Source: an uncultured Bacteroides sp.
GTDB taxonomy: Bacteria > Bacteroidota > Bacteroidia > Bacteroidales > Bacteroidaceae
DNA: 55,783 nucleotides
Direction: 5' to 3'
Assembly: GCA_946628545.1 (NCBI GenBank)
Contig: CAMOWU010000009.1
Coordinates: 1 to 55,783, forward strand
Positions 11,861 to 55,514 of this stretch are shown piece after piece; position 1 is the stretch's first letter, and each line of letters opens with the position of its first letter. The notes under the pieces were generated by a model. The model had not been told where the DNA came from. It did not search any database and saw only the letters and a program-made list of their open reading frames with translations. The position numbers and the translations under genes were made by a program.

Positions 11861-14008
11861 ATGGCAGTTTTACAAAAAATCAGAAAAAGACAGATATTGC
11901 TCGTGTCAGCAATAGCAGCAGGTCTTCTTTTCTTCATCTTGGAAGCAGCTATGGAGAGTTTGCCCTCCTTGCTGAATCAGAACAAAATCAATGTAGGCGA
12001 AGTGAACGGTGAGAAGCTCACCACTCAGGACTACCAGAATCTGATTGACGAGATTCAGACAGTTTATGAAGTCCAGGGCCAGCCTACCAGCGGTGAGGAT
12101 GCCTTGAACCGCATCAAGGACGAGGCATGGAACAACTTCATCCAGAACCAGCTTATCCAGAAAGAGTGCGAGCAGCTGGGTCTTGCAGTGAGCGACGAAG
12201 AAGTACAGGAAATGCTGAGAGAAGGCCAGAGCGCATTGCTCCAGATTCCGATGTTCATGAACCAGCAGACCGGTCGCTACGACTACTCCATCATCCAGAA
12301 CTTCATCACTCAGTACAATGAGATGAAGTCGAGCGGTCAGCAGATGCCCGACGAGGTGGAGAAGATCTACAAATACTACGCATTTGCTCAGCGCACCCTT
12401 CGCCAGCAGGCTTTGATGAACAAATATCAGACACTTTTTACCCAGTGCCTCCGTTCAAACCCTGTAGAAGCCAAGCAGGCCTTCGATGAGCAGTCGAGCA
12501 CAAGCGATATCCTTCTTGCCACTATTCCCGCCTCGAGCATCGAAGACAACAAGGTGGAAGTGAGCGACAAGGACATCCAGGCCAAATACAACGAGAACAA
12601 AGAGCAGTACAAGCAGTATGTTGAGACCCGCGACATCCGCTATATCGATGTACCTGTGAAAGCCAGCAACGCCGACATCGCACAGTTGGAGAAAGAGATG
12701 AAGGCCAGTGCCGACGCTCTTCGCGCCGCTGCTACAGAGAAAGAAGTGGAACTGGCCATGAAGAACTCTGAGACAGAATTCCGCTACACCAATCTGCTGA
12801 AGAGCAAGAACGCTTTCCCAATGGCTATCGCCAACCGCATCGACTCTGTAGCCGTTGGCACAACCACTACTCCAGTGCTCGATCCCGCCACCAACAGCTA
12901 CTATGCTTTCCGTCTTGTGGACCGCGTACAGCAGGCCGACTCAGTGTTGATCCGTCAGATTGGTGTTCCTGGAGCTGACGAGAAGGTCATCGCCAAGACC
13001 GCCGACAGTATCTTCAACGCCATTCAGGCAGGCGCCAACTTCAAAGAAGTAGCCAAGAAATACAATCAGACAGCCGACTCTGCATGGATTACGACTGCCA
13101 GTTTCGAGAATGCACAGATCGATGCAGACAACCTGAACTTCCTTAAAACCATCTACGACATGCAGGCAGGACAGGTGAAGAAGATCAGTCTGAGCAATGG
13201 TGCCACCGCTATCGTAAAGGTAGAGCAGACCAAGCACCCCATCACCAAATACAATGTTGCAGCTATCGTTCGTGAAGTACGCTTCAGCGATAACACCTAC
13301 AATGAGACTTTGAACAAACTGAGTTCATTCCTTGCTGAGAACAAGACCGTTGAAGCCATCACCGCCAATGCAGAGAAGAACGGTTACCATTTCCTCGACC
13401 TGAACGACATCACCAGCAATGGTCACAGCATTGCAGGTGTGCACAACACCCGCGACGCCATCAAGTGGTTGTTTGAGGATGCCAAGCCAGGTCAGGTGTC
13501 ACAGCTCTACGAGTGCGGCGACCAAGACCACTTCATGGTAGTGAGCCTGACAGGTATCAACAAGGCAGGTTACCGCGACATCAACAAACTGAAGGACATT
13601 CTGAAAGAGGAAGTACTTGTTGACAAGAAACTCGCTTTGATCTCCGAAAAGGCCAAGGGTGTGACCACTATGCAGGCTGCCCAGAAGTTGGAGAATGCCA
13701 AGATCGACACGATTCGTGGCATCAGTTTCAACAACCCCACTTTCGTTCCTTCCACTTCTGCCAGCGAGCCTATCATCAGCGCCAGCGCAAGCAAGGCTGA
13801 GAAAGGAAAGTTCGTAGGCCCACTGAAGGGCAACACAGGCATCTACTTCTTCCAGGTGCTCAACAAGAGCAAGAAGAGCGACAAGTTTGATGCCAAGACT
13901 GAGAAATCAACATTGGCCAACAGGAACATGCAGTATGCTGCAGGCAACGTGATCAACGTTCTTTACCTCAACGCCAATGTGAAAGACCAACGCTACATCT
14001 ATTTCTAA
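11861..14008 (+). CDS. PpiD/SurA-like membrane-anchored peptidyl-prolyl isomerase
   Basis: This is a periplasmic folding factor anchored in the inner membrane, expected to assist proteins leaving the Sec translocon. The 715-residue product starts with a short basic segment, one membrane helix (about 13-33), then a SurA-N-like chaperone region (about 45-210, VGEVNGEKLTTQDYQNLI) and a long periplasmic part with one parvulin-like region around 345-450 and a second, more divergent one around 510-600. Overall size and single N-terminal anchor fit PpiD. Catalytic competence of the parvulin domains cannot be judged by eye, since PpiD homologues are often inactive. A strong terminator follows. Confidence 0.88.
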   Translation: MAVLQKIRKRQILLVSAIAAGLLFFILEAAMESLPSLLNQNKINVGEVNGEKLTTQDYQNLIDEIQTVYEVQGQPTSGEDALNRIKDEAWNNFIQNQLIQKECEQLGLAVSDEEVQEMLREGQSALLQIPMFMNQQTGRYDYSIIQNFITQYNEMKSSGQQMPDEVEKIYKYYAFAQRTLRQQALMNKYQTLFTQCLRSNPVEAKQAFDEQSSTSDILLATIPASSIEDNKVEVSDKDIQAKYNENKEQYKQYVETRDIRYIDVPVKASNADIAQLEKEMKASADALRAAATEKEVELAMKNSETEFRYTNLLKSKNAFPMAIANRIDSVAVGTTTTPVLDPATNSYYAFRLVDRVQQADSVLIRQIGVPGADEKVIAKTADSIFNAIQAGANFKEVAKKYNQTADSAWITTASFENAQIDADNLNFLKTIYDMQAGQVKKISLSNGATAIVKVEQTKHPITKYNVAAIVREVRFSDNTYNETLNKLSSFLAENKTVEAITANAEKNGYHFLDLNDITSNGHSIAGVHNTRDAIKWLFEDAKPGQVSQLYECGDQDHFMVVSLTGINKAGYRDINKLKDILKEEVLVDKKLALISEKAKGVTTMQAAQKLENAKIDTIRGISFNNPTFVPSTSASEPIISASASKAEKGKFVGPLKGNTGIYFFQVLNKSKKSDKFDAKTEKSTLANRNMQYAAGNVINVLYLNANVKDQRYIYF

Positions 14009-14040
14009 AAATAACACACAACTAACAAAACCAATGGGAA

Positions 14041-14072
14041 AGGGATTGCACGTGAGTGCAATCCCTTTTTTT
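14041..14072 (+). terminator. Strong rho-independent terminator after ppiD
   Basis: A perfect 11-bp stem (14041-14051 with 14056-14066), a GTGA loop and a run of seven T. Confidence 0.9.
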
Positions 14073-14149
14073 ATGGTTATGGGTTATTGAGAGACCCCTC
14101 GCGCGGAACGCTCGGGCACACAACCTCAACGTTATTGAAGGGGGGGGGC

Positions 14150-14169
14150 GGACGCGACACGTCGCGTCC
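14150..14169 (+). repeat. REP palindrome copy 1, abutting the MBL gene
   Basis: GGACGCGACACGTCGCGTCC, with 9-bp arms around AC. The flanking CTAC on the plus strand is part of the repeat, and its CTA is the stop codon (TAG, minus strand) of the hydrolase gene ending at 14170. A run of nine G precedes it. Confidence 0.9.
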
Positions 14170-42602: not shown

Positions 42603-42637
42603 ACTGAAGATTCCAAATCATCTTCACTACAACTCAA

Positions 42638-42677
42638 AGAACGCCTCGGCTTCATTCCGTAAGCCGAGGCGTTCTTA
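42638..42677 (+). terminator. 16-bp perfect hairpin after the HExxH gene
   Basis: AAGAACGCCTCGGCTT pairs with AAGCCGAGGCGTTCTT across an 8-nt loop. The tail is not T-rich, but position and strength suggest a terminator. Confidence 0.75.
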
Positions 42678-43254: not shown

Positions 43255-43929
43255 ATGAACACATTGTCTAATGTGAAAAACCAACGAGGTGAATCAATGC
43301 CTCATAGCATCTTGCTCAACCACGATGCCTACCCCGAAGCCAAAGGAACAGAAAAAGGGGAGTCGGTGAAATATATCCCTGACCCAAGTAAGCAGTGGTA
43401 TGTATTCCGAGCCACACGTGGAAGGGAGGACAAAGCATCAGATTATCTTGTGCATGACGGCACCTACACCTATATCGCCAAGAAATATGCAGAGAAAACC
43501 GTTGGTGGCAAACGGAAGAAGACACTCCGCACCCTCATCCCCACATTGGTTTTCGCCTACACTTCGGCTGAGAAGGCTGACGAGTATGTCAACCACACCC
43601 CTGCCCTCTCCTATCTGAGTTATTACTACAACCATTTCGAGCATATCGAAGGCCACAAGAACCCGCCATTGATTATATCAGATAAGGAAATGGATCAATT
43701 CATCAAGGCCACATGCAGTCAGAACGAGCACATTCTGTTTGTCTCTCCGTCCCAGGTACATTACCGCAGTGGTGAATTGGTCCGCATCATCGAAGGTCCT
43801 TTTCAAGGAGTCGAGGGCCGCATCGCCCGTGTCGCCGGCCAACAACGAGTCGTCGTCTCCCTCTCAAAGATAGGTCTCGTCTCCACAGCATATATCCCCA
43901 CGGCATTTATAAGGAAAATTGAAGAATAG
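43255..43929 (+). CDS. UpxY-family NusG-like transcription antiterminator
   Basis: This NusG paralogue travels with RNA polymerase and lets it read through terminators in a specific long operon; relatives control capsule loci in Bacteroides. The product has 224 residues from ATG 43255 (210 from ATG 43297). A GTG at 43180 is rejected because it lies in a terminator stem. After ~50 residues the NGN domain starts at KQWYVFRATRGREDKASDYL, and the C-terminal KOW motif reads VRIIEGPFQGVEGRIARV. Base composition is like the backbone genes, unlike the AT-rich genes behind it. It lies 52 bp before the zinc-ribbon gene and is the first gene of the unit. No UpxZ partner is seen. Confidence 0.9.
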   Translation: MNTLSNVKNQRGESMPHSILLNHDAYPEAKGTEKGESVKYIPDPSKQWYVFRATRGREDKASDYLVHDGTYTYIAKKYAEKTVGGKRKKTLRTLIPTLVFAYTSAEKADEYVNHTPALSYLSYYYNHFEHIEGHKNPPLIISDKEMDQFIKATCSQNEHILFVSPSQVHYRSGELVRIIEGPFQGVEGRIARVAGQQRVVVSLSKIGLVSTAYIPTAFIRKIEE

Positions 43930-43981
43930 TAATTATATAATGTATAATCTATCAGGATTCAATAATTATTAGGAATAGATT

Positions 43982-44872
43982 ATGAAAGAAGATAAAAAGA
44001 CACGAGAAAAAGAATTGCATTTGGAAGAAAAAACAAATGTTGATCAATACAGACCACTTTTTCTTAGTGGCAAGAATTGCCCAAAATGTAATCAAATTGT
44101 TAATCAGGAATATGAACTATGTCCAAACTGTGGTTTCCGACTTCATTCATCACATTGTACTTTTTGTGGTGCACCTATGGAAAGCGATGACATGTTTTGC
44201 GGTGAATGCGGAGGAAGCGTAAAAGGGATACAATGTCCGACATGTGGCACATTAAGTTTTCGTTCATTTTGCCCAAGTTGCAACCAAGCGTTAGACGAAT
44301 TAGCATTTCAAGCGTTAGAAGAGGCGAAACAAGACCCTCTATATCAACGCATTTGCACCCTTGTTGAGGAAATTACTAAAGCACAGGATTCTGGGAATAT
44401 AAAAGAAGAAGAAGATCTTCCACCACATATCGCAAAGTTGATGGATAGATACCGCCAACTACAAAGCCAAACAGTCGAGAAAAAAGAGGACAATGAGCTC
44501 AAAGAAAGAAAACTACAGGAAATAGGAAGAGGAACTAACAATCAGAAGAATAGAACATACACATCAACCAAAGCTATACAACTAGAAGAATCGGGGAATG
44601 GAGATTTCGATTTATCAAAGGCAACAGAAGAACTCAATGCTTTATTAGCATCCATTGTTCCACCACCAGGCCTAACACCTCAGATGCAAAGAAACTATTA
44701 CTCCGCACGCAAAGTCGCCGTAATCCGTACGACTAAAGTGACAGAGACAATTGGCTGGATCTGCAATCTATGCGGATGTATTCACAGGATTCCAAGTGAA
44801 TGTTGCCGACCCGATTTAGGAGGCAGATGGATAATTGAAGAAAAAGAAATAACAACAAAAACTTATGAATGA
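43982..44872 (+). CDS. Triple zinc-ribbon protein of the phosphosignalling operon
   Basis: The 296-residue product has three consecutive zinc ribbons with CxxC knuckles at Cys33/36-47/50, Cys59/62-73/76 and Cys85/88-97/100, then a charged helical middle (about 105-190), and a C-terminal knuckle with Cys261, 264, 266, 274 and 275 (WICNLCGCIHRIPSECC). There is no signal peptide or membrane helix, so it is cytoplasmic. Ribbons of this double-zinc-ribbon kind commonly mediate protein contacts. Ribbons at the N-termini of the ATPase and FHA proteins in the same operon suggest a shared assembly mode. The stop overlaps the kinase start by 4 bp. Codon use is AT-rich. The specific function is unknown. 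Confidence 0.85.
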   Translation: MKEDKKTREKELHLEEKTNVDQYRPLFLSGKNCPKCNQIVNQEYELCPNCGFRLHSSHCTFCGAPMESDDMFCGECGGSVKGIQCPTCGTLSFRSFCPSCNQALDELAFQALEEAKQDPLYQRICTLVEEITKAQDSGNIKEEEDLPPHIAKLMDRYRQLQSQTVEKKEDNELKERKLQEIGRGTNNQKNRTYTSTKAIQLEESGNGDFDLSKATEELNALLASIVPPPGLTPQMQRNYYSARKVAVIRTTKVTETIGWICNLCGCIHRIPSECCRPDLGGRWIIEEKEITTKTYE

Positions 44873-47800
44873 TTATGGCTACAATCAGACCAACAAACAA
44901 CCATAACAATACCAGTGGAACTTCGAATAAAGGAACAGATGATTTGCTTGATACACAATCAAGTAGCAATCATTCTACCAATAATTCATCAACAATTAAA
45001 CCTTCTCTGCATAATAATCAGAACACCTCATCTACTGTAAAACCGAAAAACAACTCAAATTTAGACAAAACAGGGAAAACCATTCGACCAGAAACAAAAA
45101 AAGGACATGATGAATCAAACACAGTACGTCCTCATACAAACAACAATGCCAATCAATCTTCTAAAAGCTCTACAGACCCTACTATTGATGCAACATTGTA
45201 TCAACAACGAAAGTTCTATAAAATAAAAGGGGAAGAGTATCGTGTTATTAAAAGCTTATCTCTTACAAATGGTCAAGCCCAAGTCTTTCTTGTGGAGAGT
45301 CCATCAGAACAGAAATATGTATTAAAACTATATTTCGAGGAGGACATTCCAAGTTCTAACATTCTTGATAAAGTCAAAAATTGTAATGGAACGAAAGTCT
45401 TTTTCCATTTATGTGATCACGGGAAATTTGAAGACCGTTATTATGAGTTAATGCATTATTATGATGGAGATACACTTGAGCACACCGATGTTCGCAAAAA
45501 TTTGAAAGCTATTATTCCACTGATTAGGGACATGGCAATATCGATAGATTTTTGCCATCAATTAGGTTTTATCCATCGCGATATTAAGCCTGAGAACTTT
45601 ATATTCGAATCAAAAGGGAGCAATCACATTCTATTAGGCGATTTTGGAATAGCTGTTGAGTGTGATGAAAATGGCGAATGCAATGCGGATATGTCCAGAA
45701 CTAAGATATACGCAGCACCAGAGGTTTATCTGAACACAGGAGATGGCATTGCAAGATTCAGTACAAAAAGTGACTTCTATTCACTTGGAATGGTAATCAT
45801 ATTCTTATGGCAAGGTAGAGAAGAATTCACTCATTTTGAAAAGGAAAATGAATTACAGCTTGCAACTTTGAAAAATTACGGAACATTTCCGATTCCTCAT
45901 GATATGCCAGTTAAACTTAAGTCTTTAGTTGGAGCCTTGCTAGAACCCAACCCATCCGTGCGAGCAGGATTCAAAGAGATAGAAAATTGGCTTAATGACG
46001 ACCCTCTTAAAGAGGGGACAGAAGCATCAAGGGATGAACAAAATAAAAGTCCTTTCACAGTCGTATTCAATGGTGAAAAGAATCTTGTTGCACATTCACC
46101 AGAAGAATTGGCAAGATTTATGTATGACGATAAGATATTATCAGAAGATTATTTATATAGAAAGAAGGTTCAAGGATGGCTAGACGATAATAATCGGCCA
46201 GAATTAGCCATTGAGATGGAAAAAATAACAGAAGACAAGTATCCACACAATCAAAGAGCTGGATTATTAGCGGCTTGCTATATACTTGATCCTTCTATTC
46301 CATTTGATGATATCAATCACGAACCATGTCGCAAATCCTCAGAAATCGCCAACAGTATCCTATCTCATTTTGACACCTATCTTGCTCAACTATCACAATC
46401 TCTTGACAATAGCCTTACAGTATTTTTACGAACTCACGGACTTGAAAGTGCTTTTAATGATTTCAAAAAAGAGTTTGAAAAAAATCGAAGATTAGGACTA
46501 CTATATTTAGCCTATCGACTAGATGCGAATCAACCTTGGCAAATAATAGATAACCATGGGCAATCGTTTTGTTTCAACCACGAAGACGAGATTCTAAATT
46601 GGGTTTCAGATCATAATTATTCGAACATGTCGGCTTCGGATTTGGTCAGTAAAGCCTTCCAATTATGGGTTAGTCATAGGAACACGATTACCGCAGCAGC
46701 TATTAATCCCCTTATGAAATATCAAGGCAACATGGACTATGCCGAAGGTGTTCTATACCGCCTTAACCCCAAAGTAGGCCTTTTCTTTGTTCTTGATGAG
46801 AAATCAGAGGATTACATTCTATCTCTTGAACAAATAGGAAGATGGATTAACGAGAATCTTGTAACATCCATCAATTTAGCCCCTCAAAAAGACAAGAAAT
46901 CAGACAATAATCTAAATAATGTTAAGTTAATTTCCCAAGGAAAATTAACTTCTTTATATCATTTCCTCAGTTCAAAAGGTAAAGAATATGAGAAATGGAT
47001 TGACATTATTAAATATGATCTAGATTTCAATTCCGATGATAATAAGAAAAAAGCCGGCCCTTACAATTACTATATTGCCATGTTCAAAATTATCAAAGGA
47101 ATGGGGGAAAAGGCATTTTATACATTTAAAAGTGGAAAAACCATTGATGACCCCTCTCAATTATCGGATGTTCCTAAGGCAGATATAAATGATGCGTTAG
47201 AAAGAACTGGAGAACCTTTAATCTCATGGATTTCTGTATTTTTTCAAGAAGATCCATTCTTAGACAAAAAAGAAAAATACGCGTTTGAGAAACGTACGGT
47301 GGACTTTATGAACTTTCTTATCTCACAGAAGTTCATCACAGAGAATGTAAAACAATACGTAGAAGCTAAGCAATCTGTGCAATCTCTTGCTAGCAAACTC
47401 CAGAAATTGTTGTCTTTTGTTAAGACAAGTAGGTTTATTGTCGCATTTATATCATTACTACCTATATGCATAATTGGCATCCTTTTGATTTATAAATGGG
47501 AATTACACTCCAACGATTTCGATTACAACACGATAGTTTTTACTATTTTCATCATAATGACAATACTAGGATTGATTACGGGAATTGGAGACGATAATAT
47601 CGTAGGCGGTATTGCACTAGTTGGGTGTTTTGGCACTATTATTGCATCACTTATCATCTGTGGTATATGCTATTATCTTCCTTTTATAATCCCTTATATA
47701 GCTGGAATTTGTGTTTTTATGATAGGTTATTCAATTTATAAAAGCACTATCGGTCACAGTGTATTAAAGAAAAATGCTATAAAACTATTAAATCCAGATT

Positions 47801-48429
47801 TTGAGCATCTGGAACTTGAACCTTTGCACGAGGCGTATCATCCTAATGTAAATGGTTTTGACTCAAGCATATACGATGACAGCAAAACTTATCAAAATGA
47901 ATTAACGACACTCAGGAATAGGATGTGGTCGATAGCCATTCCAATAGGGGTCATAGCTATCATTTGCTTAGCGGCATATAAGAATCCAAACAATAAAGTA
48001 TGGTCATATATCAAGAAAAATACAGTAGAACGACTGATTAATAAAGATGAACAGACGGATCAAGAACAAATACAGGTCACCAATGAACCTTCTGAAATAC
48101 CAGACTTCAGTAATGGTTTGTATGGAACATGGTATGGGACTTTTCAAGGAACAGAGACACGAATCAAATTTCAGAAAACATCAAATCCAAAAGAATTTGA
48201 CATGATATTAGGAGATCACATTTTCTCTGGTGTATTTGATTATAATAAAAAAAGATTCTCATTTAATAAATATAAAGACTTAGGTTCTGGTTTATCTATA
48301 ACAAATACAAAGAAAAACTCAAAGAACATATCAGGTTCATTACAATTGAAAGAAGACAAATTGTACGGTAAAGTTAAAGTAAAGCAATTAGGTTCTTACG
48401 AAATTGACATTCAGTTCACTCCCTATTAA
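44869..48429 (+). CDS. Membrane-bound Ser/Thr protein kinase with a TIRP-motif tail
   Basis: The 1186-residue product has four parts. Residues 1-110 are disordered, Asn/Ser/Thr-rich, with T-[IV]-[RK]-P at Thr5, 42, 56, 71 and 85. A eukaryotic-like kinase domain (about 115-390) has Lys153, HRDIKPEN (Asp238), DFG (Asp258) and APE (Glu285); the glycine loop is poor (LTNGQAQ). A helical region covers about 390-850. Then come about four to five membrane helices (about 850-960 and 1019-1038) and a ~120-residue extracytoplasmic C-terminal beta domain (GTWYGTFQGTETRIKF). It is probably an inner-membrane kinase that senses envelope state or anchors the complex. The start overlaps the previous gene (ATGA); Met3 is an alternative. 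Confidence 0.92.
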   Translation: MIMATIRPTNNHNNTSGTSNKGTDDLLDTQSSSNHSTNNSSTIKPSLHNNQNTSSTVKPKNNSNLDKTGKTIRPETKKGHDESNTVRPHTNNNANQSSKSSTDPTIDATLYQQRKFYKIKGEEYRVIKSLSLTNGQAQVFLVESPSEQKYVLKLYFEEDIPSSNILDKVKNCNGTKVFFHLCDHGKFEDRYYELMHYYDGDTLEHTDVRKNLKAIIPLIRDMAISIDFCHQLGFIHRDIKPENFIFESKGSNHILLGDFGIAVECDENGECNADMSRTKIYAAPEVYLNTGDGIARFSTKSDFYSLGMVIIFLWQGREEFTHFEKENELQLATLKNYGTFPIPHDMPVKLKSLVGALLEPNPSVRAGFKEIENWLNDDPLKEGTEASRDEQNKSPFTVVFNGEKNLVAHSPEELARFMYDDKILSEDYLYRKKVQGWLDDNNRPELAIEMEKITEDKYPHNQRAGLLAACYILDPSIPFDDINHEPCRKSSEIANSILSHFDTYLAQLSQSLDNSLTVFLRTHGLESAFNDFKKEFEKNRRLGLLYLAYRLDANQPWQIIDNHGQSFCFNHEDEILNWVSDHNYSNMSASDLVSKAFQLWVSHRNTITAAAINPLMKYQGNMDYAEGVLYRLNPKVGLFFVLDEKSEDYILSLEQIGRWINENLVTSINLAPQKDKKSDNNLNNVKLISQGKLTSLYHFLSSKGKEYEKWIDIIKYDLDFNSDDNKKKAGPYNYYIAMFKIIKGMGEKAFYTFKSGKTIDDPSQLSDVPKADINDALERTGEPLISWISVFFQEDPFLDKKEKYAFEKRTVDFMNFLISQKFITENVKQYVEAKQSVQSLASKLQKLLSFVKTSRFIVAFISLLPICIIGILLIYKWELHSNDFDYNTIVFTIFIIMTILGLITGIGDDNIVGGIALVGCFGTIIASLIICGICYYLPFIIPYIAGICVFMIGYSIYKSTIGHSVLKKNAIKLLNPDFEHLELEPLHEAYHPNVNGFDSSIYDDSKTYQNELTTLRNRMWSIAIPIGVIAIICLAAYKNPNNKVWSYIKKNTVERLINKDEQTDQEQIQVTNEPSEIPDFSNGLYGTWYGTFQGTETRIKFQKTSNPKEFDMILGDHIFSGVFDYNKKRFSFNKYKDLGSGLSITNTKKNSKNISGSLQLKEDKLYGKVKVKQLGSYEIDIQFTPY

Positions 48430-48484
48430 ATGACAATGATATATAAGATATAACACATATACATATCTAACACTTTTAGACTAC

Positions 48485-51400
48485 ATGGAAAAAGAGAAAG
48501 TTTGTGAGAGATGCGGAACGGCAAACCGCAAGGAAGCAATTTACTGCAAGATGTGCGGAGAGCAACTCGTAATAGACAGCCAAAACGAGCTACCAGACTC
48601 TATCGATTCTTTTATGCCAGAAATAATAGGACACAAACAGGTCAAGAAACTTGTAAAGGAAATCATAGAAAAACACCTAAATCAAAGGAAAAGGGGGATC
48701 AAAAAGATTCGCAACAACGACCTAATATTAACAGGAAACTCAGGTACAGGAAAGACACTTATCGTGAATTCGATATCACGAGTTCTTAAAGAAAACGGTA
48801 TCCTCACCAAAGAGAGGCCTATAATTCTCAACGCAGTCACAGGGCTTCAACAATATTTGAACGAAGCGGATAAGCATTTGAATGAATTAAACGGTGCTTT
48901 ATTGTGTGTGGATTCATTCCAAGGTTTGGCACAAAGAGCTGCTACTAATGGAAGTGCACTAACAGAAATAGAGCGTCTGTTCGAGGTTAAAAAACACATA
49001 GAAGATAGTGGTGGCTATCTAATGATTGTATTATGTGGTATCGACAATGGAGCTATTTCTACATATTTGAACAATAATTCCAATATCAAAGCAAACTTCA
49101 AACACATAATTGAATTATCGGACTATTCTGTAGATGAATTAGTTGAACTGACCACATTCTTTATAGGAGAAGTATACAAAATGGACGTTGAGCCTGAAGC
49201 GAAAGAAAAAATACGGAGAATCTACAAACAATTGTTCAGAGACAAAGACGGAAGTCTCCAACAAAACGGAAAATATGTATCACGTTTTGCACAAGATATT
49301 TTCGACAAAACTCAACAACGAGATGACACGACATCAGTCGTTACTCAAGAAGATGTTGAAGGAAAGGAATATATCAAAAAGACATTCGAAGAAGCTATCG
49401 CAGAACTGGATAACTATGTCGGCATAGATGACATTAGAGAAGAAATAAAAAGTATTGGCTATAGTATTCAAATCGCGTCAGAAGATGGCATTCCCTATGA
49501 ATTAAACAACCACTATCTGTTTCTTGGCAATCCTGGGACAGGTAAAACCACTATCGCCAGAGTATTGTCGAATGTGTTCACCGCCCTTGAAGCACTTCCA
49601 AGTGGACATATCATAGAAGTTGGCAGATCACAGATAGTTGCGTCATATGTAGGCGAGACAGCAAAGAATGTGACAAACATTGTACGAAAGGCTATGGGTG
49701 GAATCCTATTCATCGATGAAGCCTACACTTTGATTCAAGGCGATAATGACAATTTTGGAAAAGAAGCGGTGGATACGCTTCTAGCACTTATGGAAAACCA
49801 TAGAGGTAAATTTATTGTCATTGCAGCTGGATATGAAAATGAAATGAGAAAATTTGTCGAATCAAACCCAGGATTGAGTTCAAGGTTTAATAAAACTATT
49901 CATTTCAGGGACTATAAGCCCGAGGAATTGGCTCAGATTTTCATGAACATGTGTTCGAATCATAATCCGCAATATGAAATTGACCCAGAATACGAACCTC
50001 AACTTTTAGCATATTTCAAATCCATCTATAATCAGAAAACCGAAAACTTTGCTAACGCCCGAACTGTCAGGAATGTTTTTGAAAATGCAATAGAACGACA
50101 TAACAGACGCATTAATGAAATGAGAGAAAAAGGAATAGATATTAAAGAAATAAAAAATGTATTCTCAAAAGAGGATATAGTTGGTGACGGTTCTGGCGAA
50201 TTGACAGTGGAGCAGGCCATGGCACAACTCGATGAATTGATTGGCATGGAGGAAGTGAAGAATAGAATTAAGATGTTAAAAAACACCCTTGAGGTTGAAC
50301 GTGTAAAAATTGAGCGTGGTCTTATGGATCCAAAGAACACAGCTCAGCACATTGTCATTACAGGAAATCCAGGAACAGGCAAAACCACTGTTGCAAAATT
50401 GCTTGGCAACATCTTCCATGCTATAGGATTGCTCCCAACCAATAAAGTGGTAGAAAAAGAAGCGAAAAACCTCAAAAGTCCCTACGTCAATGGGACGGGA
50501 ATATTGATGAATGAAGCTGTGGACGAGGCTATGGGAGGCATATTGTTCATCGATGAGGCTTATATGCTCATGAGTATTGACGCGAATGGACAAGGAGACC
50601 AAACAGGCAAGGAGGCAGTGGGCGCCCTAATCACACGAATGACAAACGATGCGGGTAAGTTCATACTGATTATGGCAGGATATCCAAAAGACATGGATGA
50701 ATTTGTAGATAAAGCTAATCCTGGATTCAGACGCCGCTTTAGAGATTTTATTCACATCAACGATTACACAGCTGATGAACTATACCAAATCTTTCTGCTG
50801 AAATCCAACAAGCGTAAATACCATCTGACAACAGAAGCTGACCAAAGGTTAAAGATCAAGATTGAGCAGATGGTAAACACAAAAAGTGAAAATTTTGGAA
50901 ATGCAGGGGAAATTGACAAATTGCTCACTGATGTCGAAGAACGTCAATCAACAAGACTCTCGAAAATGATGAAATCAAATCCTCATATTGACAATTCTGC
51001 ACTCCAATATATAGAAGCTGAGGATATTCCTGTTGAAATGCCTAAGGAAGTTAACCCCTCTGTCATTATGAAGAAACTTGATGGTTTTGTAGGTCTTGGA
51101 ACTGTTAAACAAGAACTAAGGAACTTGGTGAATACCATTAATCTGAATAAAAAACTCGCTGATTTAGAGGGGAAACCAACAGACAAGGTTCTAGACCACT
51201 ATGTATTCAAAGGCAACCCGGGAACGGGAAAAACCACTATCGCAAAGATGATGGCAGAAATATTATTCACAATGGGATTGCTACCTACAAGCAAGGTTGT
51301 AGAAGTAGGACGAGATAATCTTGTTGCTGGCTTTGTTGGACAGACTGCACCAAAGGTTAAGCGAGTTGTAGAGAGCGCACTGGGTGGAGTGCTCTTCATC

Positions 51401-51886
51401 GATGAAGCATACTCACTCATGCAAGGCCCGAATGACACTTTCGGGAGGGAGGCCATCGATACACTTGTCCCTTTGCTCCTTACACATAAAAATAAATTTA
51501 TATGCATAGTCGCGGGATATTCTGCCGACATGGAAAATCTACTGAATAATAATTCGGGACTAAAAAGCAGATTCAGGAAGACAATTATTTTTGAAGACTA
51601 TAAGCCAGAGGAATTGGCTCAGATATTCATGAATAGTGTCAAAAACTCACCGTTCTCAATAACAGAAGAAGCAAGGTCTGAGGTACTTGAGTATTTCAGA
51701 GAGATTTATTCTCATCGAGACAAGAACTTCGGTAATGCGAGAACTGCAGGTAATTTCTTTGAAAATGTAAAGACTGCTCACAGCAATCGAGTTGCAAACA
51801 ACGATCTAAATAATAAACAATTAGAAACCGAACTCCTCAGAGAACTAACCAAAGAGGATATTATCAATGCTAAACAAATTCAATAA
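48485..51886 (+). CDS. Four-module AAA+ ATPase (one degenerate plus three CbxX/CfxQ-like) with an N-terminal zinc ribbon
   Basis: The 1133-residue product starts with a zinc ribbon (Cys7, 10, 21, 24). Four P-loop modules follow with Walker A at 84-91 (GNSGTGKT), 348 (GNPGTGKTT), 627 and 910, spaced about 265-285 residues. Modules 2-4 have FIDEAY Walker B and the CbbX/SpoVK/EccA look. Module 1 reads CVDS in place of DE and is probably inactive. Modules 2 and 4 keep the pore-loop type YVGETA/FVGQTA; module 3 has YVNGTG. CbxX/CfxQ relatives remodel bound proteins (red-type Rubisco activase CbbX) or serve type VII secretion (EccA). Three such modules in one chain could form an intramolecular partial ring. 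No target is evident. Confidence 0.92.
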   Translation: MEKEKVCERCGTANRKEAIYCKMCGEQLVIDSQNELPDSIDSFMPEIIGHKQVKKLVKEIIEKHLNQRKRGIKKIRNNDLILTGNSGTGKTLIVNSISRVLKENGILTKERPIILNAVTGLQQYLNEADKHLNELNGALLCVDSFQGLAQRAATNGSALTEIERLFEVKKHIEDSGGYLMIVLCGIDNGAISTYLNNNSNIKANFKHIIELSDYSVDELVELTTFFIGEVYKMDVEPEAKEKIRRIYKQLFRDKDGSLQQNGKYVSRFAQDIFDKTQQRDDTTSVVTQEDVEGKEYIKKTFEEAIAELDNYVGIDDIREEIKSIGYSIQIASEDGIPYELNNHYLFLGNPGTGKTTIARVLSNVFTALEALPSGHIIEVGRSQIVASYVGETAKNVTNIVRKAMGGILFIDEAYTLIQGDNDNFGKEAVDTLLALMENHRGKFIVIAAGYENEMRKFVESNPGLSSRFNKTIHFRDYKPEELAQIFMNMCSNHNPQYEIDPEYEPQLLAYFKSIYNQKTENFANARTVRNVFENAIERHNRRINEMREKGIDIKEIKNVFSKEDIVGDGSGELTVEQAMAQLDELIGMEEVKNRIKMLKNTLEVERVKIERGLMDPKNTAQHIVITGNPGTGKTTVAKLLGNIFHAIGLLPTNKVVEKEAKNLKSPYVNGTGILMNEAVDEAMGGILFIDEAYMLMSIDANGQGDQTGKEAVGALITRMTNDAGKFILIMAGYPKDMDEFVDKANPGFRRRFRDFIHINDYTADELYQIFLLKSNKRKYHLTTEADQRLKIKIEQMVNTKSENFGNAGEIDKLLTDVEERQSTRLSKMMKSNPHIDNSALQYIEAEDIPVEMPKEVNPSVIMKKLDGFVGLGTVKQELRNLVNTINLNKKLADLEGKPTDKVLDHYVFKGNPGTGKTTIAKMMAEILFTMGLLPTSKVVEVGRDNLVAGFVGQTAPKVKRVVESALGGVLFIDEAYSLMQGPNDTFGREAIDTLVPLLLTHKNKFICIVAGYSADMENLLNNNSGLKSRFRKTIIFEDYKPEELAQIFMNSVKNSPFSITEEARSEVLEYFREIYSHRDKNFGNARTAGNFFENVKTAHSNRVANNDLNNKQLETELLRELTKEDIINAKQIQ

Positions 51887-51889
51887 GAC

Positions 51890-52498
51890 ATGGACATAAA
51901 ACTTACACTTTGCCCTTTCTGCAAGAAACTCATTCCTGAGGATTGCGTGTACTGTGACATGTGTGGGAATAAACTACGCCGATGCATGACTTGCGGCACT
52001 TTCTCAAAATCAAAAAGATGTGTGAAATGTGGACAACCGACAGAAGAGTTTGATAGTAAAGCATCAGAATCTGACATAAAGAATATTAGACCCGTAAATA
52101 AAGCAGAAGAAATACAGAGTAATCAATATTCATCAGAAGCAAATATATCAACAAACAAACCTACAGGTGTCAACGCGACAATAAGACCCTCTATTTCGAA
52201 AAAAACTTCAATTCCCGGTCATTTGGTGTGCACTTCTAAAAACATGAGGCTTGGGCTTGGTGATGATGCTATTATAGGAAGAAACGGTAGTTATGGAGAC
52301 GCATTTCAGGAATTTCCCTCAATATCTAGGGAACATGCAAAACTATTGAAGGGTGATATTGATTGGCTGATTGAAGATATTGGATCGAGTTGGGGAACAT
52401 TTCTGAACAATAAAGAACTCGAAAAAAACAAGCCTACTCCCATAAAGGTTGGTGATACCTTGAGATTTGCCGATATTGAATTTAAAGTCACAGAATAA
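51890..52498 (+). CDS. Zinc-ribbon plus FHA domain protein
   Basis: The 202-residue product has an N-terminal double ribbon (Cys8/11, 19/22/25, 32/35, 44/47), a linker with NIRP (65-68) and TIRP (Thr97), and a C-terminal FHA domain (about 112-200) with the phosphothreonine-binding residues: IIGRNGSYG, SISREHA and WGTFLNN. It should read phospho-threonines written by the adjacent kinase and recruit the AAA+ protein or zinc-ribbon partner. The start is only 3 nt after the ATPase stop. Its own TIRP site resembles those in the kinase tail, so it may itself be phosphorylated, allowing FHA-to-tail or intermolecular binding. Confidence 0.93.
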   Translation: MDIKLTLCPFCKKLIPEDCVYCDMCGNKLRRCMTCGTFSKSKRCVKCGQPTEEFDSKASESDIKNIRPVNKAEEIQSNQYSSEANISTNKPTGVNATIRPSISKKTSIPGHLVCTSKNMRLGLGDDAIIGRNGSYGDAFQEFPSISREHAKLLKGDIDWLIEDIGSSWGTFLNNKELEKNKPTPIKVGDTLRFADIEFKVTE

Positions 52499-52517
52499 TA
52501 TATAAGTCTTTAACAGA

Positions 52518-53282
52518 ATGCAAATATTATTGAAAATATCCTTAAATAGTGATATTGGGTGTACACGAACGAACAATGAGGACATGATTCTCATTTCAGG
52601 TGAGAAATATAGAGATTGTTCTGATGAATTTCAAAGCTTTGTTGAAGACAAAGGCAGGTTCATAGCTGCAGTAGCAGATGGAATGGGTGGACACAATGCT
52701 GGTGAAGTCGCAAGTGAAATGGCTCTTGATTTGATTGACAACTTCTCAGTAAGAATTCCTCAAAATCTTAGTGACAACGACTTTCGCAATCTGCTTGATA
52801 ATGAGATAGTAAAAATACACGATCAAATTATCTCATCTGGTAGAATAAACACTCAATGCCTTGACATGGGCACCACATTAGTGGCTTGGTTAACTTACGA
52901 GAACAGAATATACCTTGTCAATATAGGCGACAGCAGAGGGTATAGATTACGAAAAGGCATTTTATGCCAACTTACAAAAGATCACTCGGAACAAAATAGA
53001 CTGAACGATCATACCATACCTTCTAACTTAATCTATAACTGCCTTGGAGGTGGAGGAGGAACTGTTTTTGCTGATGTGAAAGAAATAACAAACAAAGTAT
53101 TCGAAGGGGATGTTTTTCTTTTATGCAGTGACGGTGTTTCAGACTATCTCAATGACGAAGAAATAGAAAAAGAACTAATTCGTCATTGTCATGCGACAAC
53201 ACTTATTGATGCTGTAAAAAAGAAAGGTGGTCCTGACAATATAAGTGCAATCGTAATATCCATAAAAAAAATGATAATATGA
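52518..53282 (+). CDS. PP2C-family Ser/Thr phosphatase
   Basis: This metal-dependent phosphatase is expected to reverse the operon kinase. The 254-residue product has the PPM metal-site motifs in order: TNNEDM (Asp22), VADGMGGHNAGEVAS (Asp54), MGTTLVAWL, IGDSRGYR, CSDGVSDYL, and GGPDNISAIV near the C-terminus. It is a single soluble domain of standard length, without membrane segments. It starts 19 bp after the FHA gene and overlaps the following coiled-coil gene by 4 bp, so its output is coupled to both. Confidence 0.94.
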   Translation: MQILLKISLNSDIGCTRTNNEDMILISGEKYRDCSDEFQSFVEDKGRFIAAVADGMGGHNAGEVASEMALDLIDNFSVRIPQNLSDNDFRNLLDNEIVKIHDQIISSGRINTQCLDMGTTLVAWLTYENRIYLVNIGDSRGYRLRKGILCQLTKDHSEQNRLNDHTIPSNLIYNCLGGGGGTVFADVKEITNKVFEGDVFLLCSDGVSDYLNDEEIEKELIRHCHATTLIDAVKKKGGPDNISAIVISIKKMII

Positions 53283-54418
53283 ATTCAATTATAAAATTAT
53301 GGTCAAGGCTTGTTATGTTCGCTGTTATTATTGCCCTTTTGACCACCCTTCCAACAAACTGTAGCTCTTGTACTTCACTTGATAATTTTCTGAATGATCT
53401 TATGAATCCTTCGGAAAGCGTGAAAGGGAAAGAATACATTTCAAATAAAGAAATACAGAATGCTTGGCCTGATGAATTTGGGAAATTAATTACAATAAAA
53501 TTAACCGAGTACAATATTCAATTCACAGAAATTGACAAAACCAACAATGTCATCCAACAGGAACTTACCCCAATAGATTTATTAATTGAGGAATATAAGA
53601 ATGAGGTCCACAAACAAAAGAATTATTGCAAGAATGCAAAAATAGAGCAAGCAACACTCTTGAAATGGATATCTGAAAATAATTCGAAAATAGAATATAT
53701 CAAAAAGAAATATGAAGAATTATCAAATAAAAATAATCAAATCAAAAAAGAAATAGACAAGTTGATTTCAAATCTCAAATCATTAAAAGATGCAATTGGC
53801 AATAATAGATACAAAAAAAGGGCAGATAGCAGTGACCAAGATGAAGAAGTGTTTTTTGGTAACTTCATAACAAAAGAAGAATATGAGTCAATAAAAAAAG
53901 AACGAAAAGAGCAAATAGAAAAGCTTTTAAGAGAAAAGATTGACCCACTTGTTATGGAAATAAAAGCAAACACTAAAACTATATCAAATTTGAATAATCG
54001 AATAGATGAATGTGTTAGACAGATAGAAAGAATGAACAAAGAGTTGGAGCGTATTATAATTATAAAAGAAGACGATGATAAAACAACTGATAAGGAAAAA
54101 GATGAGGACAAAGTATATTATTATATCATTGGTGACGAAGAGGAACTGAAATCAAAAGGAGTAGTCACATCGAATAATTTATATGCTGGAACGAAAGTAA
54201 ATACTAAATTAGATAAAAACTTATTTGCCTTATTAACACAATCAGATAGAAGTATTCTTCTTGGAGGCGAAAACGACATATTTGATATAGTTTCAGACAA
54301 TCCTGAAGATAGTTATGAAATCAAAAACATAAATAAGACTAAAGTATTGGTTATAAAGGATGTGAAGAGATTCTGGAGTAATACAGAATTTCTCGTCATT
54401 AAAAAAAGAGCAAAATAA
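53279..54418 (+). CDS. Exported coiled-coil protein with a Cbp1-like C-terminal domain
   Basis: The 379-residue product has an N-terminal hydrophobic segment (about 8-25) followed by TNCSSC. The lipobox is poor, so it may be a lipoprotein or an anchored protein. About 95-275 is highly charged heptad-rich coiled coil (KKYEELSNKNNQIKKEIDKL). The C-terminal ~100 residues (VYYYIIGDEEELKSKGV, then FWSNTEFLVIKK) match a domain I know from Bacteroidales coiled-coil lipoproteins, often annotated as Cbp1-type collagen-binding adhesins, where YYVIGxKKELKxKG and FWSxxKYLVI recur. The adhesin label is weak. Its place in the operon suggests an envelope output of the kinase circuit. Confidence 0.82.
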   Translation: MNSIIKLWSRLVMFAVIIALLTTLPTNCSSCTSLDNFLNDLMNPSESVKGKEYISNKEIQNAWPDEFGKLITIKLTEYNIQFTEIDKTNNVIQQELTPIDLLIEEYKNEVHKQKNYCKNAKIEQATLLKWISENNSKIEYIKKKYEELSNKNNQIKKEIDKLISNLKSLKDAIGNNRYKKRADSSDQDEEVFFGNFITKEEYESIKKERKEQIEKLLREKIDPLVMEIKANTKTISNLNNRIDECVRQIERMNKELERIIIIKEDDDKTTDKEKDEDKVYYYIIGDEEELKSKGVVTSNNLYAGTKVNTKLDKNLFALLTQSDRSILLGGENDIFDIVSDNPEDSYEIKNINKTKVLVIKDVKRFWSNTEFLVIKKRAK

Positions 54419-54452
54419 CTTCAAGAACTATTCATATAATAAACATTGAATC

Positions 54453-55514
54453 ATGGAAGAAACCGACAAACAACAACAAATGCAAGTTGCAGTACCTTAT
54501 GCGACTAAGCAAATGTTTCTAAGCTCAATTGTAGATATGCTATCAAATTATAATTGGCCGAATGGAGCAATAAAGTGTATCAATCCTAACAACACTAAGC
54601 TTATATTTCTTTATGGAAATCGAATTAAGGTTAACGTTGAGGGTGATTATACAGCAAAAGTAGATGGCGAATACCTCATTGCAATAAATGACCAGAAAGC
54701 AACTATACCAAATGGAATGATGTACAATGGTACTATTCCAAAAACTCCCTACGAATTCATTCTCATCAATGAAAATAATTCTACACCTGAATGGGCTAAA
54801 AAGTATTGCCAGCTCTGCTTTGAATGTAAGAGTTTCCAACCCATTTCTTACGTCGAACAGGCAGGCGGAATAAAAGTGGGAGACAATTCTGACAAATCCC
54901 TTCAATCTTGGGTGAAATATGGAGATCTTATTATAAGAGATTTCTCATATCAACTAGCAAACCAGTTGTCGAAGCACTCTCTCACAGCATATCTTGCACT
55001 AAACGTACTACCAAAAGATGTCATTATGAATGCAAGTAGTTTGCTTAACGATAATAATTTCCCTTCTAGGGATGTGGTAGCACATACCCAGTATTATGAA
55101 ACAGAAGCTCCATCTCCTGTTCTAGTTCCCTTCTATCTGCTTGAATTCTCATTTGAAGGTAAAGAATATCATATTTCTATGGCTGCAGATAAGAATTATG
55201 CCCAGCACATTAAAGGCCAAATTCCTCCTGTAAAGATAAAGGAAACAGAAATAATAAAGCCACTTCAGATTGTAGAAAAAGAAATGCCCGAAAAATATAA
55301 GCAGGTTAAGATGGTCAAGTGGTGCTGGGTGTTGGCTATTGTTCTATTCCTAATTGCTAATTTCAAAATAGCATTCATCTATCTTATTGCTTGGTACATA
55401 TGTTATCAAATCATCAAGAAGCCTATAAACAAGCGAGTGAATGAAATTGTGCAGCAGATTATGGACAAAAACAAGGAAAAAGCGGAAATGCTGAAAAAAC
55501 AGCTATTAGGGTGA
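54453..55514 (+). CDS. Unknown protein with C-terminal membrane helices, last gene of the operon
   Basis: The 353-residue product has no signal peptide. Residues 1-285 look soluble and alpha/beta (an N-terminal TKQMFLSSIVDMLSNYNW, a C-x2-C pair in KYCQLCFECKSF, then SPVLVPFYLLEFSFEGKEY). A hydrophobic hairpin at about 293-325 (VLAIVLFLIANFKIAFIYLI) and a basic amphipathic tail follow, as in tail-anchored or peripheral proteins. I do not recognise the family. It shares the AT-rich composition and close spacing of the upstream genes (34 bp after the coiled-coil gene). A hairpin 49 bp behind it probably ends the unit. Confidence 0.8.
   Translation: MEETDKQQQMQVAVPYATKQMFLSSIVDMLSNYNWPNGAIKCINPNNTKLIFLYGNRIKVNVEGDYTAKVDGEYLIAINDQKATIPNGMMYNGTIPKTPYEFILINENNSTPEWAKKYCQLCFECKSFQPISYVEQAGGIKVGDNSDKSLQSWVKYGDLIIRDFSYQLANQLSKHSLTAYLALNVLPKDVIMNASSLLNDNNFPSRDVVAHTQYYETEAPSPVLVPFYLLEFSFEGKEYHISMAADKNYAQHIKGQIPPVKIKETEIIKPLQIVEKEMPEKYKQVKMVKWCWVLAIVLFLIANFKIAFIYLIAWYICYQIIKKPINKRVNEIVQQIMDKNKEKAEMLKKQLLG

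Follow-up and report, generated by a model that had tools for sequence, protein, structure and literature searches.

A conserved five-gene kinase, FHA, PP2C and AAA+ unit of Bacteroidota with threonine motifs common to the kinase tail and the FHA protein

Among the described systems in which Ser/Thr phosphorylation is read by an FHA domain, PknG was reported to recruit GarA through its FHA domain to autophosphorylated threonines of the kinase N-tail, after which GarA becomes phosphorylated on its own motif (PMC8546545), and in the type VI secretion system (T6SS) of Pseudomonas the recruitment of ClpV1 depends on Fha1, the protein on which PpkA and PppA act (PMC3953482). Ser/Thr kinases are also used in the network of ArnA, a protein of archaellum regulation in Sulfolobus (PMC6509490). 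Here, a locus assembled from comparable parts is described for contig CAMOWU010000009.1 of an uncultured Bacteroides sp. (GCA_946628545.1), the entire 55,783 bases of which were analysed and are referred to as the window. The locus consists of eight open reading frames (ORFs) on the + strand, which are separated by no more than 55 bp and overlap by 4 bp at 44869 and 53279, all found at about the places given in a first-pass annotation made from the DNA letters, and the domains named there (UpxY, zinc ribbons, kinase, four AAA modules, FHA, PP2C) were confirmed by curated models. What this annotation missed is a zinc ribbon on the ATPase and a threonine motif common to the kinase and the FHA protein, and its eight-gene (or seven-gene) unit has to be narrowed to genes 2 to 6, as genes 1, 7 and 8 do not belong to the conserved set. 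With moderate confidence, we interpret this core as a phosphothreonine switch of five genes that operates at the membrane and is coupled to an AAA+ motor for protein remodelling. Its features in the window are the following:

43982..44872, + strand: gene 2, core gene 1, a triple zinc-ribbon protein (DZR, 54 bits) with a conserved C-terminal Cys/His module
44869..48429, + strand: gene 3, core gene 2, a membrane Ser/Thr kinase (Pkinase, 89 bits)
44881..45132, + strand: segment of the kinase N-tail with five T[IV][RK]P motifs (Thr5, 42, 56, 71, 85), from a motif scan
48485..51886, + strand: gene 4, core gene 3, a zinc ribbon followed by four AAA+ modules of the CbxX/SpoVK/EccA type (family models, EccA 630 bits)
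51890..52498, + strand: gene 5, core gene 4, a double zinc ribbon, a disordered linker and an FHA domain (FHA, 48 bits)
52178..52189, + strand: TIRP motif (Thr97) in the linker of the FHA protein, identical to the kinase-tail motif, from a motif scan
52518..53282, + strand: gene 6, core gene 5, a PP2C-type Ser/Thr phosphatase (PP2C_2, 58.7 bits; Stp1, 160 bits, its cut-off of 230 not being reached)

When genomes of GTDB 220, taken as one per species, were scanned with the ATPase, loci L014-L019 were brought in, in which ribbon protein, kinase, ATPase, FHA protein and PP2C follow each other in the same order and on the same strand, the contig of L014 ending after the ATPase. In total, 20 complete five-gene loci with order and strand kept, the window included, were identified in several Bacteroidota families, while others are cut by contig ends. 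Full-length or nearly full-length relatives found with the kinase profile occur in 6 of 393 Bacteroidales genomes and 13 of 201 genomes of the window's own family, in 3 of 79 and 6 of 80 genomes of two families of the phylum that lie beyond the class-level sample, and in 3 of the 345 genomes of the class-level draw. The pairwise distances of the five core proteins are correlated (r 0.76-0.93), whereby none of 2000 Mantel permutations gave a correlation as high. Co-located relatives and correlated distances together establish that genes 2 to 6 are one conserved, co-located unit and not a chance neighbourhood; the homologues are not scattered, and the conserved kinase-ATPase neighbourhood expected in the first-pass annotation is borne out. 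AAA+ relatives from Ignavibacteria/Chlorobi, Clostridia and cyanobacteria (L020-L031) lack the core partners beside them, which means that membership in this ATPase family does not by itself indicate the core. The expectation that the set would not match an already named system also stands, since PADLOC contains no such set and no name was found in the literature searched, most subscription journals lying outside its reach; the five-gene set is real, conserved and apparently unnamed.

The kinase tails of these loci are of low complexity and carry threonine motifs in tandem, T[IVL][RK] occurring 56 times in 30 loci as compared to 4.0±1.9 times in shuffled tails. In the window the tail presents TIRP, TVRP and TIKP, five T[IV][RK]P copies where 0.03 are expected after shuffling. 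The motifs are locus-specific: PQGTAVAP is repeated in L015 and L017, QKTAAAP in L016, DKTLKP in L035 and SGTQRP in L036, and D(D/E)KT(I/V)R is found in L048-L052 and L064-L065. Exact GTAVAPQ heptad repeats, with six GTAVA in L015 (6805-6970) and five in L017 (1197-1340), document that the number of repeats differs between close relatives. Roughly half of the loci encode an FHA protein that bears a copy of the motif of its own kinase, either in the linker or at the C-terminus, yielding the matched pairs TIRP/TIRP, PQGTAVA/PQGTAVA, SDATVRV/SDATVRV and DKTVRI/DKTVRI (kinase/FHA). Linker copies are VNATIRP in the window and PQGTAVA in L015 and L017; outer lineages carry SDATVRV, LDKTVRI, TEKTVRI, GEKTIRV or DEKTVRL at the extreme C-terminus, and KDKTIGG (L061) and PSGTIIG (L062) were also found in FHA proteins. 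The match score of kinases with the FHA proteins of their own loci is 260, as compared to 165±18 for mismatched pairs (as high in 0 of 100,000 permutations) and 140±16 for shuffled FHA linkers (0 of 1000 as high). All six copies of T[IV][RK]P among the 39 non-overlapping ORFs of the window lie in the kinase and the FHA protein, and the motif is nearly absent from all other ORFs of the scanned loci; the N-terminus of the ribbon protein also has TAV in L015-L017. This common threonine motif is the strongest mechanistic clue that the sequences offer.

The three signalling proteins of the core have retained their active residues. K153, D238, N243 and D258 (DFG) of the kinase (31 sequences), G130, R131, S146 and H149 of the FHA domain (24 sequences) and D22, D54, G55, D205 and D240 of the PP2C, metal ligands included (21 sequences), are conserved nearly without exception. 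In the AlphaFold model of the FHA protein, the FHA fold is predicted with confidence, and Thr97 lies in a disordered linker ahead of it. The kinase comprises a disordered N-tail with the threonine motifs, the kinase domain, a long middle region, about five transmembrane helices and a putative periplasmic end, the five helices being such that, judged by hydrophobicity, they would place the C-terminus in the periplasm. In relatives this end carries PG_binding_1 (L015, to which L016 and L017 align) or SH3_3 (L036), which renders a cell-wall cue plausible; the window kinase ends in a small domain other than PG_binding_1 or SH3. An envelope or cell-wall input to the kinase is hence plausible.

The ribbon protein has invariant Cys columns and an invariant C-terminal W/C/N/H/P/C/GG/W pattern across 7 loci, and as the N-terminus of the ATPase is itself a zinc ribbon (C7, C10, C21, C24), ribbons are present in three of the five core proteins. 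Walker A and Walker B are complete in ATPase modules 2-4, while module 1 has Walker A and lacks the Walker B glutamate; the ATPases of relatives have three to five AAA modules. The protein scores above the cut-offs of TIGR02881, TIGR03922 and TIGR02880, scores being summed over the modules, and its best solved matches in the PDB are CbbX (3zuh) and EccA1 (9lur). No Rubisco, ESX or sporulation genes were recognised among those of the flanks that were listed or searched for families. As separate observations, L035 has a short AAA-like fragment (13627-14151) between the ATPase and FHA genes, and a set with a CbxX-type ATPase, a radical-SAM-like activase, vWA-like and PP2C-like proteins and ribbon proteins was seen in L044 (contig C28 of the window's own genome), L045 and L047 (contig C4 of the same genome), the latter also with a DnaK-like protein.

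Comparison with the described systems places the core next to several of them. With the PknG-GarA/OdhI pathway of Actinobacteria it has in common a disordered kinase N-tail with threonine sites and, for the window and roughly half of the loci, a threonine motif beside the FHA domain of the partner. In contrast to PknG-GarA, the kinase described here is a membrane protein whose tail motif occurs in repeats and recurs nearly letter by letter in the FHA protein, PP2C, ribbon protein and AAA+ motor share its operon, and its output is not known to be metabolic. Orthology to PknG/GarA was not found: no PknG model is among the kinase matches, the OdhI model reaches 16.7 of 200 bits and the FHA proteins have no ETTS motif. 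With the T6SS pathway of PpkA, Fha1, PppA and ClpV1 the core shares a membrane kinase, an FHA protein and a PP2C around an AAA+ machine, but no T6SS structural gene was found in 23 genomes that bear the core, the AAA+ protein is of the CbxX/EccA type with 3-5 fused modules, and the FHA protein carries ribbons. Zinc ribbon and FHA domain are also combined in ArnA, along most of which the profile aligns (5a8i residues 5-195); ArnA, however, pairs with the vWA protein ArnB, and an AAA+ motor, a PP2C and a repeated kinase tail are not described in PMC6509490. The AAA modules resemble CbbX, EccA and SpoVK in sequence type, from which the ATPase differs by four modules per chain (3-5 in relatives) and an N-terminal zinc ribbon. 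Finally, the 'FHA group' of haloarchaeal endosomal sorting complexes required for transport (ESCRT) has an FHA protein, Ser/Thr kinases and the AAA+ ATPase Vps4 in one neighbourhood (PMC10936438), but that group is archaeal and based on Vps4 and ESCRT-III, and an ESCRT-III gene was not seen here. By its sequence, the set is a kinase-FHA-PP2C-AAA+ switch of a known sort with what appears to be an unusually clear sequence-encoded docking code. A related layout was observed in L039 (8282-15877), where a kinase with NKT-x-[IV]-Y tail repeats, an SGPK-starting protein, a ClpB-like AAA+, a radical-SAM-like protein, FHA and PP2C stand together, and in L040 (6764-10011), where a kinase of the same repeat-tail sort stands with an SGPK-starting protein (the repeats reading NKTGIY/NKTEVY or DKTSAY in L039/L040); judging by the L039 layout, kinase-FHA-AAA+ units with coded tails may form a wider class.

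The mechanism proposed for the core assumes that an envelope cue would reach the kinase via its C-terminal periplasmic end, whereupon the kinase would autophosphorylate the repeated threonines of its disordered N-tail, thereby creating a multivalent docking strip. The zinc-ribbon-FHA protein would dock on this strip via its FHA domain, and its own motif copy would be phosphorylated in turn; as in PknG-GarA/OdhI, this copy may then close onto the FHA domain of the same molecule or bind to a second one. The PP2C would reset both kinase tail and FHA protein. Given the common ribbons and the T6SS precedent, in which ClpV1 recruitment needs Fha1, the state of the FHA protein is suggested to be passed on by contacts between the zinc ribbons of core genes 1, 3 and 4, which may recruit or gate the ATPase at the membrane, and the four-module CbxX-type ATPase would finally thread or remodel a client. 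Put forward more tentatively, and with somewhat less than even weight, is the wider proposal that this is an undescribed form of Bacteroidota envelope signalling, in which a private, lineage-specific phosphothreonine code of kinase tail and FHA reader would be orthogonal to other kinase-FHA pairs of the same cell and would gate a fused multi-AAA+ unfoldase. Little is charted of Ser/Thr phosphorylation in Bacteroidota. A unit of writer, reader, eraser and AAA+ motor occurring in gut and free-living lineages would offer a tractable model, and the matched motifs of tail and reader allow short peptides and locus swaps to be used for testing directly how an FHA protein recognises the kinase it belongs to.

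Several points weigh against the proposed switch. Residue 168 of the FHA protein (52391-52393), located in the STNGT loop, is Trp in the window but Asn in 23 of 23 other sequences, and this exchange could weaken phosphopeptide binding by the window FHA domain. Roughly half of the loci (L016, L018, L034, L054, L055, L060, L066 and others) showed no clear copy of the motif on the FHA side, and, the loci being related, the matched motifs amount to about five independent lineages and not to 20 independent tests. A PP2C ORF was not found in L055, L060 and L066, the kinase topology derives from hydrophobicity only, and the ATPase client, like the connection of the ATPase by zinc ribbons, is a guess.

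Among the other explanations, the one that survives best, though we judge it unlikely, is that of an anti-phage or inter-bacterial conflict system, in which the kinase would sense attack, the AAA+ protein would act as effector, and SUKH, DUF1963 and TerB would be variable immunity-like cargo. Genes of these kinds do abut the core: SUKH (SMI1/KNR4) genes are located within it or follow it immediately in L048 (5289-6083, with a relative in L049, 4665-5198) and L052 (10445-10966), DUF1963 genes beside it in L015 (5282-5890) and L035 (15931-16575, with a relative in L062, 9933-10583), and a TerB-domain gene abuts it in L016 (5133-5927). The distribution is patchy, the base composition in the window is foreign, and the kinase gives distant PADLOC matches to MAD6 and PD-T4-6. 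Against this, the PADLOC matches are to generic kinase and AAA parts of many systems, a known effector domain was not seen in the core, and in L018, L019 (identical in sequence to L053), L034, L054 and L055 the core occupies one fixed chromosomal site by housekeeping genes, beside genes which we take, by our own reading of the sequences and not by family search, to be metA-like and collagenase-like. Moreover, searches of plasmids and phages returned kinase-domain matches only and never the core at full length, and a relative was not confirmed among the viral contigs searched. The generic matches and the fixed site in several family members speak little for the defence role considered in the first-pass annotation.

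Rather improbable, in our estimation, is the explanation that the operon is real but its kinase tail no docking site, motif sharing being a side effect of common ancestry and of tandem repeats in low-complexity sequence. The tails are indeed of low complexity, the exact heptads of L015 and L017 could have arisen by slippage, and the copy is missing in half of the FHA proteins. Yet the match links non-homologous regions and survives both shuffling and mismatched pairing, the motif letters and position (linker or extreme C-terminus) vary by lineage and nevertheless track the own kinase, and the motif is hardly found elsewhere in the loci.

An orphan T6SS-type threonine phosphorylation pathway, with counterparts of PpkA, Fha1, PppA and a ClpV-like ATPase controlling a secretion machine, contractile or otherwise, whose genes lie elsewhere in the genome, would account for the same four parts but is very unlikely. 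In none of the 23 bearer genomes was TssC (PF05943, for which the E. coli control was positive) or a phage-type sheath (PF04984) found, nor the Bacteroidetes-type TssC of model PF17541, which was run without positive control; furthermore, the ATPase is not ClpV and the FHA protein is not TagH/Fha1 (TIGR03354, 22.7 of 120 bits). The statement of the first-pass annotation that neither T6SS nor Ter genes accompany the set holds for the T6SS sheath and, as to Ter, for the window, but not for L016 with its TerB-domain neighbour.

The idea of a capsule or surface-polysaccharide module, in which kinase and ATPase would regulate capsule assembly via an antiterminator, fits the UpxY gene directly upstream of the core in the window and L014 but is scarcely credible, as the other core loci lack UpxY, no glycosyltransferase cluster was seen around the core, core genes and not glycan synthesis genes follow the window UpxY, and the UpxY proteins of the two loci are weakly alike (18 bits) as compared to the adjacent ribbon proteins (318 bits).

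The remaining genes of the run are additions outside the core:

43255..43929, + strand: gene 1, a UpxY-family NusG paralogue (antiterminator; NF033644, 126 bits, cut-off 100), a local addition
53279..54418, + strand: gene 7, an exported coiled-coil protein with a C-terminus like that of Cbp1-family lipoproteins (NF052320, 71 bits, its cut-off of 90 not being reached)
54453..55514, + strand: gene 8, an orphan protein with C-terminal membrane helices and without family match

With UpxY confined to the window and its sister locus L014, the notion that the antiterminator drives the system is not supported; in the window UpxY may help RNA polymerase to read the 12-kb unit. An invertible promoter upstream of UpxY was considered and rejected, the sole inverted repeat being a terminator-like 16-bp palindrome (42637-42676); promoter and terminator scans of the region gave results near shuffle level, and its Rfam scan returned no match. 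Homologues of genes 7 and 8 were not found beside another core locus. Gene 8 had no homologue in 60 relatives and its structure model was unusable (predicted local distance difference test score 37); gene 7 is a loose member of a widespread exported Bacteroidales lipoprotein-like family with weak relatives in 17 of 60 other genomes. The G+C content is 35-39% for the core and about 29-39% for the operon, as compared to 51% to the left, and given this AT-richness the window operon was probably imported.

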